A stretch of 64,000 nt of DNA from Alistipes sp. (GTDB lineage Bacteria > Bacteroidota > Bacteroidia > Bacteroidales > Rikenellaceae), in the NCBI GenBank assembly GCA_017555105.1, contig JAFZHB010000003.1, positions 1 to 64,000 of the forward strand, written 5' to 3'. The notes beneath the pieces are model-generated. The model searched no databases, had not been told where the DNA came from, and saw nothing but the letters and a program-made list of their open reading frames with translations. This document shows, in pieces, positions 29,728-52,093 of this stretch. Both the position numbers and the translations under genes were made by a program. Each line of letters starts with the position of its first letter. Within the stretch, counting starts at the first letter, position 1.

Positions 29728-30711
29728 ATGGATATGCTTAAAACTCAAATACTTCGTATCGACCGCTCGACGCTTCGTCCGCTGGTGGCGTTGGTTGTAA
29801 TGGTCTTAGCGCTTTCCCTCCTTTCGGAAAGTTTCTTCACCTCGGATAACATCTTCAATGTGATGCGTCAGGTGTCGGTGAACCTCTGTATCTCGGTCGG
29901 TATGACCCTGGTGATCCTCACCGGAGGTATCGACCTCTCTGTTGGTTCGATCCTGGCATTGAGCGGAGCCGTCTCTGCCGGACTGATCAAGTCGGGATTG
30001 CAATTTGCGGGGATCAACCTCCATGTCGGCTTCACCTTTTTCGGTGTGGTGGTTGTGGCGCTGCTGATTGGAGGGCTCTTGGGATGGTTTAACGGCCAGA
30101 TGGTCACCCGATTTAAGGTGCCGCCCTTTATCGCTACGCTTGGTATGTTGACCATTGCGCGCGGTATGACGATGCTCTACACGAATGGTCACCCGATCAC
30201 GGGGCTGGGAGCGCAGTTCGAATATCTTGGTACAGGGTGGTTCTGTGGTATTCCGATGCCGGTGCTGGTGGCCGTCCTGGTTGTGCTGCTCTTTGCGCTC
30301 TTCATGCGCAAGGCGCCCTGGGGTCGATATATCTATGCTATCGGAGGGAATGAGCGTGCTTCGCGCTTGTCGGGTATTGATGTGAATCGCGTCAAGTGTT
30401 TTGTCTATACGGTAGCAGGAGTTTTATCGGCCGTGGCAGCACTGATCGTAACGGCACGCCTCGATTCGGCACAGCCCAATGCCGGTACGGGGTATGAGTT
30501 GGATTCGATTGCCGCGGTGGTGATTGGCGGCACTTCGCTCAATGGCGGAAGGGGGTCGGTTTGGGGGACGGTGATCGGTGCGCTGATTATTGGTGTGCTG
30601 AATAACGGTTTGGTACTGATGAATGTATCGCCCTTCTGGCAACAGGTAATCAAGGGTGTGGTGATTCTCTTGGCGGTTATCATGGATCGCATGAATGCCA
30701 AGGAGGCATAG
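29728..30711 (+). CDS. sugar ABC transporter permease (RbsC type)
   Basis: This 327-residue inner-membrane permease of the RbsC/XylH family (PF02653) has about 8-10 helices. It contains the CUT2 landmark LTGGIDLSVGSILALSGAV and the EAA-like loop IYAIGGNERASRLSGIDV, followed by AVVIGGTSLNGGRGSVWGT. It completes the importer. No kinase (RbsK), pyranase (RbsD) or regulator follows, so the catabolic step must be encoded elsewhere. A bidirectional terminator lies 38 nt downstream. Confidence 0.95.
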   Translation: MDMLKTQILRIDRSTLRPLVALVVMVLALSLLSESFFTSDNIFNVMRQVSVNLCISVGMTLVILTGGIDLSVGSILALSGAVSAGLIKSGLQFAGINLHVGFTFFGVVVVALLIGGLLGWFNGQMVTRFKVPPFIATLGMLTIARGMTMLYTNGHPITGLGAQFEYLGTGWFCGIPMPVLVAVLVVLLFALFMRKAPWGRYIYAIGGNERASRLSGIDVNRVKCFVYTVAGVLSAVAALIVTARLDSAQPNAGTGYELDSIAAVVIGGTSLNGGRGSVWGTVIGALIIGVLNNGLVLMNVSPFWQQVIKGVVILLAVIMDRMNAKEA

Positions 30712-30748
30712 CCTCAGACAGCCACGCAGAGCGTGCTTTGGTAGAATA

Positions 30749-30793
30749 CAAAAAAAAGTTGCACCTCCCAATCGGGTGATGCAACTTTTTTTT
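30749..30793. terminator. bidirectional terminator, sugar ABC operon / candidate small RNA
   Basis: AAAAAAAGTTGCA...TGCAACTTTTTTT with inner CC/GG pairs. T-runs on both strands can end the plus-strand operon and the minus-strand RNA. Confidence 0.88.
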
Positions 30794-30930
30794 CTGAGGT
30801 CAATCAGCCGGCTTTCGACTGCACTTCGGCGAGCACCGCTCGAAGCGTCTAAGTCGTGCTTAGCACAACATTCGGCCGATCTATCCTCTACCAACCTAAA
30901 ACTACTAACCTAAATGAACCTTAAAACTTC
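30750..30930 (-). ncRNA. candidate structured small RNA of about 180 nt
   Basis: There is no ORF here, but a perfect promoter (30935-30966) points into a highly structured minus-strand stretch that ends at an intrinsic terminator. Helices on that strand are GAGG/CCUC (30885-30888 with 30796-30799), AUCGGCCG/CGGCUGAU (30873-30880 with 30803-30810), hairpin GUUGUGC-UAA-GCACGAC (30853-30869), and CGCUUCG(A)GCG/CGCCGAAGUG with loop GUGCU. The last three each contain a G-U pair that would be an A-C mismatch on the plus strand, so the minus strand is the folding one. The 5' part is unpaired and repeats AGGUU three times. It may be the Bacteroidales-1/6S-like class, but I cannot confirm a family. 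Confidence 0.7.
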
Positions 30931-30934
30931 GCTG

Positions 30935-30966
30935 CAAAGGTAAGGCAGATTTTTGAGTTATGCAAA
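30935..30966 (-). promoter_or_regulatory. promoter of the candidate small RNA
   Basis: On the minus strand: TTTG, exactly 20 nt, TACCTTTG (30935-30942). It is among the best promoter matches in the window, and the only gene it could serve is the RNA at 30750-30930. Confidence 0.8.
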
Positions 30967-31061
30967 TTTTTTAGAAAAAAATTAAATAAATTTAATAATT
31001 AAAATTGCAGATCGCCCTCAGAAGGGCGTAGAAGGGATTTTTTTATCTCAAAATTTTTTGC

Positions 31062-31069
31062 TACCTTTG
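31062..31069 (+). promoter_or_regulatory. -7 box of hemW (near-leaderless)
   Basis: TACCTTTG ends 8 nt before the ATG at 31078. A 6-bp hairpin CGCCCT-CAGA-AGGGCG lies just upstream (31013-31028). Confidence 0.65.
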
Positions 31070-31077
31070 ATACCCGC

Positions 31078-32190
31078 ATGGCCGCAATATACTATCATAT
31101 ACCATTTTGCAAGCGAATTTGCAGTTACTGCGACTTCTATCGTACGGCGCGTCTTTCGACCCTTCCCGACCTGGTCTCGGCGATGTGTCGCGAGGTGCGT
31201 GAGCGGCGTGATTACCTGCGTGGAGAGCCGATTTTGACCCGTTATTTCGGCGGTGGGACTCCCTCGCTCTGCTCGATCGAACAGCTCTCGAAGCTGTTGC
31301 GAACGACCGAGGAGCTATTCGATTGCTCGCAGGTGGAGGAGACGACCCTCGAGGCGAACCCCGATGACCTGACGGCGGAATATCTGGCCGGGCTGCGCTC
31401 GATCGGCATCGATCGCCTTTCGATTGGTATTCAATCTTTCGATGATGCGTGTCTGCAGTTGATGAATCGCCGCCATACGGCTGCCGAGGCCGAGGATGCG
31501 GTACTTCGAGCGCAGGATGCGGGCTTTGATAACCTAACCATCGACCTGATTTTTGGCGTTCCGGGCTTTGGGGGCGCATCATTTGAACGCTCGGTCGAGC
31601 GTGCGCTGGCTCTCAATGTGCAGCACATCTCGGCCTATCTGCTCTCGATCGAGCCGCGTACGCGCTTCGGTCTGATGCGCGATCGGGGTGAGTTGGTCGA
31701 GACCCCCGATGAGGTGTGCGATTCGGAGTTTCGTTATCTGCATGAGCAACTTACAGCTGCGGGCTTTGAGCACTATGAGATCTCGAATTTCGCCCGCAAG
31801 GGGTGTCGTGCACGCCATAACAGCTCCTATTGGCAGGGTGTTCCCTACCTTGGCATTGGCCCTGCAGCCCACTCCTTCGATGGGGAGAGCCGCCAGTGGA
31901 ATGTGGCCTCTGTCGAGCGCTATTTGGCGGGAGAGGCGCCCGAGGTGGAACAGTTGAGCGAAACGGACCGAATCAACGAGTTTTTGATGACGCGTCTGCG
32001 TACGGCGGAGGGTTTTTCGCTGGCCGATTTTGAGGCGCGTTTCGGTCTTTTGCGTCGCCGGGAACTCGAACGCGAGGTGCAGCGTCAGTGTGCAGCCGAA
32101 GTGCTGGTCCGTGCGGGGGATCGGGTGCGGATTCTGCCCGACGAGATGCTTATCTCGGATCGCGTAATTGCTGCTCTTTTTGTTGATTAG
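31078..32190 (+). CDS. hemW: HemW, radical SAM heme chaperone
   Basis: This 370-residue HemN-like radical SAM protein has the cluster motif CxxxCxxC in PFCKRICSYCDFY near the N-terminus, the FGGGTPSLCS glycine-rich SAM segment, ANPDD, and RLSIGIQSFDD. It lacks the N-terminal extension of true coproporphyrinogen dehydrogenase (HemN), which fits HemW, a heme-binding chaperone. The C-terminal HemN_C domain (about 290-370) is present. It is a single gene, with the glycogen cluster beginning 137 nt later behind its own promoter. Confidence 0.92.
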   Translation: MAAIYYHIPFCKRICSYCDFYRTARLSTLPDLVSAMCREVRERRDYLRGEPILTRYFGGGTPSLCSIEQLSKLLRTTEELFDCSQVEETTLEANPDDLTAEYLAGLRSIGIDRLSIGIQSFDDACLQLMNRRHTAAEAEDAVLRAQDAGFDNLTIDLIFGVPGFGGASFERSVERALALNVQHISAYLLSIEPRTRFGLMRDRGELVETPDEVCDSEFRYLHEQLTAAGFEHYEISNFARKGCRARHNSSYWQGVPYLGIGPAAHSFDGESRQWNVASVERYLAGEAPEVEQLSETDRINEFLMTRLRTAEGFSLADFEARFGLLRRRELEREVQRQCAAEVLVRAGDRVRILPDEMLISDRVIAALFVD

Positions 32191-52064: not shown

Positions 52065-52093
52065 CCAACCAATACCGAACCTTAAATAACTTT

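Follow-up and report, generated by a model that had tools for sequence, protein, structure and literature searches.

The 64,000-nt stretch of Alistipes DNA analysed here, which we call the window, carries a small-RNA gene at 30930-30750 on the minus strand in which a promoter, a 5′ tract, a multi-helix domain and a terminator follow one another in that order. The RNA almost certainly belongs to a real RNA family for which we found no Rfam entry. Judging from sequence comparison, we favour with moderate confidence the view that the Rikenellaceae (Alistipes and Tidjanibacter) have a paralogous family of small RNAs that would act in trans as repressors at the start sites of their targets, and that the window RNA is its long-form member. 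What chance cannot explain is the conservation, which extends to 158 of 180 genus genomes and includes changes on both sides in 17 of 22 base pairs.

A putative independent transcription unit with a covarying domain

The gene lies between a sugar-type ABC permease gene (BPD_transp_2; 29728-30711) and a HemN/HemW-type radical SAM gene (31078-32190). Since both of these are on the plus strand, whereas the small RNA is on the minus strand, the latter reads as an independent transcription unit. Its features, with the evidence for each, are the following.

30963-30966, minus strand: TTTG, the -33 element of a Bacteroidota primary sigma promoter (sequence; family-wide spacing)
30935-30942, minus strand: the -7 element TACCTTTG, consensus TAnnTTTG (sequence; distinct family elements)
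30891-30930, minus strand: near-invariant 40-nt 5′ tract GAAGUUUUAAGGUUCAUUUAGGUUAGUAGUUUUAGGUUGG with three UUUARGGUU repeats (aligned long forms; both forms)
30888-30796, minus strand: multi-helix domain (fold and alignment)
30885-30888, minus strand: P1 5′ strand GAGG of the closing stem, pairing with CCUC at 30799-30796 (sequence and fold; conserved but ragged in alignment A1)
30873-30880, minus strand: P2 5′ strand AUCGGCCG (fold and covariation)
30853-30869, minus strand: P3 hairpin, GUUGUGC (30869-30863) with GCACGAC (30859-30853) (covariation; length and sequence vary in relatives)
30822-30847, minus strand: P4 hairpin, CGCUUCG (30847-30841) with CGAAGUG (30828-30822), conserved GGUGCUC loop (covariation)
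30803-30810, minus strand: P2 3′ strand CGGCUGAU (fold and covariation)
30796-30799, minus strand: P1 3′ strand CCUC of the closing stem (alignment)
30750-30793, minus strand: separate intrinsic terminator hairpin with a U8 tail (fold and sequence)

The minus-strand promoter of the original prediction was confirmed, with TTTG at 30966-30963, a 20-base spacer and TACCTTTG at 30942-30935. The pattern TTTG-N17-22-TACCTTTG occurs twice in the 64 kb, where 0.01 occurrences are expected; this promoter type (TTTG/TAnnTTTG) is outside the coverage of the sigma-70 promoter scan. Across the family, TAnnTTTG is present in 154 of 159 distinct elements, with TTG 19-21 bases upstream in 153 of these 154, and it is followed by GAAGT at a distance of 4 nt in 133 of the 154 and of 5 nt in a further 19. 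Because the tract stands at this fixed spacing from the promoter, the RNA very likely begins with it. An A/T-rich stretch, e.g. AATTGTTAAATTTATTTAATTT, lies upstream of the -33 box (30966), with similar stretches in the near relatives L002-L004 and also in L006 and L013, and is possibly an UP-like element.

The three helices that had been predicted lie at the proposed places, each with the proposed G-U pair when the pairs are read by eye, and the predicted intrinsic terminator appears in the fold as a long hairpin with an eight-U tail at 30793-30750; it is not among the results of a simple terminator scan. The fold beats all 200 shuffles, with a z-score of -4.39 that is high in part because of the terminator. 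In the near kin L002-L004 the terminator hairpin is likewise separate from the domain, some other relatives (L006, L009, L013) have a different extra hairpin, and 79 of 102 long-form rows have a run of at least five U within 3 nt downstream of the closing stem.

Covariation was assessed in alignment A1, for which 109 long-form rows were reduced to 84 by redundancy filtering; seven of these were removed as short forms or because of a misplaced end, and four with a deviating domain (L037, L040, L131, L156) were omitted, which left 73. Over the 22 pairs of the four helices, 95.5% are standard pairs, as compared with 28-50% when the partners are slid by 1-3 columns. The covariation score is 0.523, against 0.07-0.15 for the slid and 0.239 for the shuffled alignment. 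In helix 1 (P2), 97.2% of cells are paired, with both-sided changes in four of eight pairs; in helix 2 (P3) the values are 95.5% and six of seven, and in helices 3 and 4 (P4) all seven pairs change on both sides. P1 was left out of the count, being ragged in A1. A concern about these statistics is that they are somewhat flattered, since the structure was derived from the same alignment and the four deviating rows were omitted. This effect is too small to explain the covariation, which proves the helices.

A family without an Rfam match and with two 3′ ends

With Rfam 15 at the gathering threshold, the 64-kb window gave no match except a tRNA elsewhere; at E up to 10, nothing within 30600-31080 came near a gathering score, and at E up to 3 the RNA was unmatched in nine relative loci that included short forms. 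In the same library the FopS model (RF04319) matches phage loci and the GibS model (RF04182) is present. The accessible parts of the literature, including PMC11697453, PMC7366714 and PMC8040213, contain no such RNA, although the supplement of PMC8040213 may hold an unnamed entry; that paper, as far as its accessible text goes, reports thousands of candidate structured RNAs, one of them mostly from Alistipes and upstream of L20. The original prediction of a free-standing regulatory RNA is supported, as one that Rfam does not describe, by a covariance-model search that matched no known family, by the covariation and by the conservation across the genus.

The class proposed for it fared differently. 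That the RNA is 6S-like or a Bacteroidales-1 RNA, and as such binds RNA polymerase, would agree with its size and its free-standing gene, and Bacteroidales-1 (RF01693, a model of 179 positions) is likewise a structured Bacteroidales RNA of similar length. RF01693, however, is absent from the window and from nine genus genomes including the present one, while as a control it matches an order-level relative and Bacteroides ihuae; the RNA is not Bacteroidales-1. No 6S family is among the Rfam matches of the window (gathering threshold) or of 30600-31080 (E up to 10). 6S RNA is a long bulged rod, whereas the present RNA consists of a 5′ tract and a branched 3′ domain, and its second form, described below, has only the 5′ tract in common with the first and no rod. 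We consider this class assignment highly improbable.

The family is widespread in the genus. A BLAST search with 226 bases gave matches in 22 of 41 genomes, the present one included, and all 22 are of the same genus. The tract-core pattern occurs in 157 of the 180 genus genomes and the backwards pattern in none, while model R1 matches 158 of the 180 and 67 of the 70 that are of good quality, with at most three copies found per genome. When named genomes were scanned with the tract pattern, at least 118 stretches were found. Among the matches listed with a title, 76 of 80 are named Alistipes, Tidjanibacter or Rikenellaceae; the four other-named rows and three of the 38 untitled rows among the matches listed are simple-repeat matches. 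Loci consisting of simple TTTAGG-type repeats (L072, L073, L096, L112, L128, L147, L148) were removed before elements were counted.

Over 198 order genomes, R1 gave one certain find in another genus of the same family, a short form with tract and promoter (G535). Eighteen other order genomes gave matches with E of 0.002-0.1, and of the six matches inspected L392 alone stays ambiguous, being either a chance match or a distant relative. L392, from another family of the order (G615:C109), reads TTTAGGATAGTAGTTTTAGGTTG, followed by a GAGG..CCTC hairpin and a T-run, and the gene that ends just before it we take to be dnaK-like. A 66-nt query against 247 class-level genomes returned nothing convincing outside the genus, the matches outside the present genome having E-values of 1.5e-5 and worse; nine that were fetched (L028-L036) have no promoter-tract-domain arrangement by eye. 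The tract pattern is found in no stretch of the viral collection, which was searched for phage carriage. A fixed neighbour gene was considered and rejected, as the largest cluster comprises 31 of the 489 flanking ORFs of 159 elements.

One and the same tract is joined to two different 3′ ends. In the structured long form, to which the window copy belongs, GAGG/CCUC encloses an inner stem that carries two branches, whereas the tract of the short form leads directly into a terminator hairpin. The present genome has both, since besides the window copy there is a short form on contig 16 (G000:C16:125282), and in some genomes (L006, L013, L157) the two lie 0.3-0.5 kb apart. A rough sorting by regular expression gave 105 long (one of them a repeat match), 37 short and 25 unsorted among 167 rows; after repeat removal it gave 87 long, 44 short and 28 unsorted among 159. 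In all four loci scanned (L051, L058, L123, L142) a short-type copy immediately precedes a tRNA-Leu(gag) gene; L051 and L058 are from Tidjanibacter.

The two forms bear on the possibility that the RNA is a signal sensor, in which the branched domain, with its GGUGCUC loop and its CUAA/GAAU junction strands, would bind a ligand or protein and so expose or hide the tract. In favour of it, the domain covaries across the genus and the letters of loop and junction are conserved; yet the domain deviates in several relatives (L005, L037, L131, L156), and the short form does without it altogether. We regard as improbable this reading, in which the long form would be the sensing version of the short one.

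Complementarity of the 5′ tract to translation starts

The original prediction had described the 5′ third of the RNA merely as U-rich with three AGGUU repeats. The repeats are there, at 30926-30892, but the key part, a near-invariant tract, had gone unrecognised. The tract, which starts with GAAGUUUUAAGG (30930-30891, minus strand), is common to long and short forms and nearly all identical across the 73 aligned long forms, apart from the variable length of one U-run and changes in single rows at three other positions. Predictions leave it only partly unpaired (mean 0.51, against 0.33 for the domain). A coding reading was rejected: all forward frames contain stops by eye, and the length of the U-run varies.

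We propose that the tract is an antisense-to-start-site seed at the 5′ end of the RNA. Its reverse complement, with one extra 3′ base, is ACCAACCUAAAACUACUAACCUAAAUGAACCUUAAAACUUC, which resembles a translation start of the Bacteroidota, AUG included (AACCUAAA...AUGAA). In the mechanism that we favour, RNA polymerase would start at the TAnnTTTG promoter and, as the spacing suggests, the RNA would begin with the tract. The tract is the reverse complement of the typical Bacteroidota start region, a leader AACCUAAA or ACCUUAAAA followed by AUG, and would pair with the start sites of SusC-like receptors, lipoproteins, glycosidases and transporters, a step for which there is statistical support. 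Pairing would presumably block ribosome entry, and the 3′ part, which is branched and covarying in the long form and a plain terminator hairpin in the short form, would protect and terminate the RNA. The action would resemble that of GibS (long form) and FopS (short form) of Bacteroides, apparently without RbpB, and the RNA would then probably be a brake on what these gut bacteria eat.

The statistical support comes from exact complements of the tract around start codons. Over 1219 starts in the fetched genus DNA, a first set for which SusC loci were in part deliberately chosen, a 9-nt complement at -40 to +10 occurs in 37 genes, compared with 22.3 +- 7.5 for 200 shuffled tracts, six of which reach 37; there is no excess at -100 to -50 or at +30 to +80, and the tract's own sense gives 5 genes. 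The excess resides in SusC-like starts (8 of 25 against 2.0 expected; 2 of 500 shuffles) and in signal-peptide genes (19 of 371 against 10.7; 22 of 500 shuffles), and is not seen in other genes (10 of 823 against 9.1). At 10 nt, SusC-like starts of this set give 1 of 25 against 0.7.

A second set of SusC-like genes consisted of 60 stretches, two of them without a start, and thus of 58 starts. Complements of 9 nt were found in 12 of the 58 against 4.3 expected (6 of 1000 shuffles), with none of the 58 at -100 to -50, and complements of 10 nt in 7 against 1.5 (5 of 1000 shuffles). Nine of these 58 starts are near-duplicates of the first set and there is one more internal duplicate. Without internal duplicates the 9-nt count is 11 of 54 against 3.5 (6 of 2000 shuffles). 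In the strictest set, from which the near-duplicates of the first set were removed as well, it is 8 of 48 against 2.8 (18 of 2000 shuffles), a weaker p-value in the same direction, and the 10-nt count is 5 against 0.9 (5 of 2000 shuffles).

Other measures of pairing gave no significant signal. Complements of 7 nt were reached by 131 of 1000 shuffles for the 58 starts and by 333 of 2000 for the strictest 48. The duplex energy over 679 starts was -12.72 against -12.34 +- 0.37, with 11 of 60 shuffled tracts as good, and the longest helix with G-U allowed was matched by 19 of 60 shuffles. SusC-like starts of outgroup genomes, in which the RNA was not found, have 9-nt complements in 5 of 39 against 2.0 expected (101 of 2000 shuffles). 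Since outgroup starts also show some excess, the signal stems in part from a leader that is common in the order. Genus and outgroup differ only at 10 nt (6 of 54 against 0 of 39, p 0.03) and not at 9 nt (p 0.25), and the published FopS consensus at 9 nt finds a comparable proportion, 11 of the 58 genus starts and 9 of 40 in the outgroup.

Near-complements were searched for in 41 genomes with the 19-mer CAACCTAAAACTACTAACC at up to three mismatches. Outside known small-RNA genes this gave 32 sites, 12 of which were read as a third RNA form (8 fetched, 4 assigned by matched letters alone) and 20 as possible targets. Fifteen of the latter were examined, the remaining five being G343 (twice), G001, G011 and G398; the fifteenth, a gene leader (L477), was kept out of the count. 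Of the 14 counted, 11 lie at start codons, as compared with 3 of 20 for the reversed pattern. Two of the sites were picked because the match held ATG (L470, L479) and one was known beforehand (L411); leaving these three out gives 8 of 11. The sites L481 and L482 are orthologous.

In the present genome, a sodium:solute symporter gene (PF00474, start near G000:C5:25182) has CAACCUAAAACUACUUAUG at its start, with 15 contiguous complementary bases that end one base before the AUG. The window itself contains a weak candidate, which lies 8-17 bases upstream of the start codon (ATG 52094) of an AraC-type regulator gene.

52077-52086, plus strand: GAACCTTAAA, 10-nt exact complement of the tract, weak candidate target (prediction)

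The strongest single site, at a GH43 lipoprotein gene of G008, was rejected as a conserved target, as it is missing from five close orthologues including that of the present genome. It is because of the failed energy and helix tests, the outgroup signal and this non-conserved best site that we hold the proposed mechanism with no more than moderate confidence.

The invariance of the whole tract also counts against the repressor reading, as it exceeds what variable targets obviously need. An alternate explanation is that the three UUUARGGUU repeats titrate an RNA-binding protein, in the way that CsrB titrates CsrA, and that the match to start sites is incidental. The three repeats within a near-invariant tract would suit such a sponge, as would the presence of two unrelated 3′ ends on one tract. 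A protein site shared with other transcripts would, however, appear elsewhere as the same sequence, yet it is the complement that is enriched (37 genes, against 5 for the sense), and a search of 13 genus genomes for one Bacteroidota candidate, an RRM protein, found none. We therefore consider a sponge unlikely and retain repression at start sites as the preferred reading.

The third RNA form is a recurring locus, read in 12 of the 41 genomes. Seven of the eight fetched copies, and L215 from another genome, carry UUCAUUUAUUUAAGUUUGGGUUAGUAGUUUUAG or a near copy, while L478 has only the later part. The core of the third form reads, in reverse complement, as a start region with AUGAAGAAA. By eye this form has a 5′ hairpin and a terminator. 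Upstream of all eight aligned copies (L477 and L478 set aside) is TGGYAY-N5-TTGY, which we take to be the -24/-12 pattern of sigma-54 promoters. Nothing above gathering score was found for it in Rfam, in a search that covered the copies other than L215. The copy of the present genome (G000:C20:153694; L471) has GGUUAGUAGUUUUAG and UUCAUUUA in common with L441, L472-L476 and L215. In G017, for which the near-complement search gave no third-form site, a DUF3276 gene (L477; G017:C12, minus strand near 778) has a leader that is exactly complementary to the third form over about 31 bases. It is conceivable, though we would lean against it, that the long and short forms with their housekeeping promoter and the third form with its sigma-54-type promoter, all with the reverse complement of an idealised Bacteroidota start, together restrain exported and glycan-uptake proteins in general and independently of RbpB, as a system that replaced GibS/FopS-RbpB of Bacteroides or arose alongside it, the two sigma factors setting the timing.

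Comparison with GibS, FopS and RbpB

Post-transcriptional control in gut Bacteroidota is described mainly for B. thetaiotaomicron, with GibS and FopS acting together with RbpB, as far as the accessible parts of PMC7366714 and PMC11697453 go; both RNAs bind this RRM protein there (PMC11697453, accessible part). The RbpB fold, RRM_1, was found in none of 13 genus genomes (G000-G012, the present one included) and in four of eight order-level relatives; as the 13 genomes are 72-98% complete, the absence is likely but short of certain. The two 3′ forms, the anti-start-site logic and the GibS/FopS-like design go beyond what the original prediction contained, and since the tract is so constant, one probe or knock-down design would serve most of the genus.

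FopS (RF04319), in the accessible text of PMC11697453, is a paralogous family with a canonical promoter and a 5′ seed complementary to SusC starts, as is the case here. Its copies start about 4 nt after TAnnTTTG by eye, the same spacing as in our family, and its terminator comes directly after the seed, as in our short form. Complementarity of this type to SusC starts is found in silico for the present tract as well (11 of 54 against 3.5), partly in common with outgroup starts. In contrast, the FopS R1′ seed was not found at the 5′ end of the tract, where the 9-mer UUUAAGGUU is the sole R1′ sequence that the tract contains, and homology is not supported, as the alignment score of the tract with the published FopS consensus was reached by 713 of 3000 shuffle pairs. 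FopS has 12-15 copies whereas we found at most three per genome, and it differs from our family, which has three repeats and a structured long form.

GibS (RF04182), as described in the accessible part of PMC7366714, is about 145 nt long and consists of a conserved 5′ segment of 38 nt, mainly single-stranded, which base-pairs with start regions, a structured part and a terminator, which is the same layout as that of our long form. GibS has its own promoter type whereas the promoter here is canonical, and the domain of our long form, unlike that of GibS, is a covarying multi-branch structure. We thus think it fairly likely that the RNA works like GibS and FopS, and that it is, by the tests made, a member of neither family. 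RNAs of the GibS/FopS design, with a seed that is not detectably related, are present in a gut genus whose searched genomes yielded no RRM protein. If the proposed mechanism is right, pairing with SusC-type starts would be a recurring means of controlling glycan uptake that is possible without RbpB.
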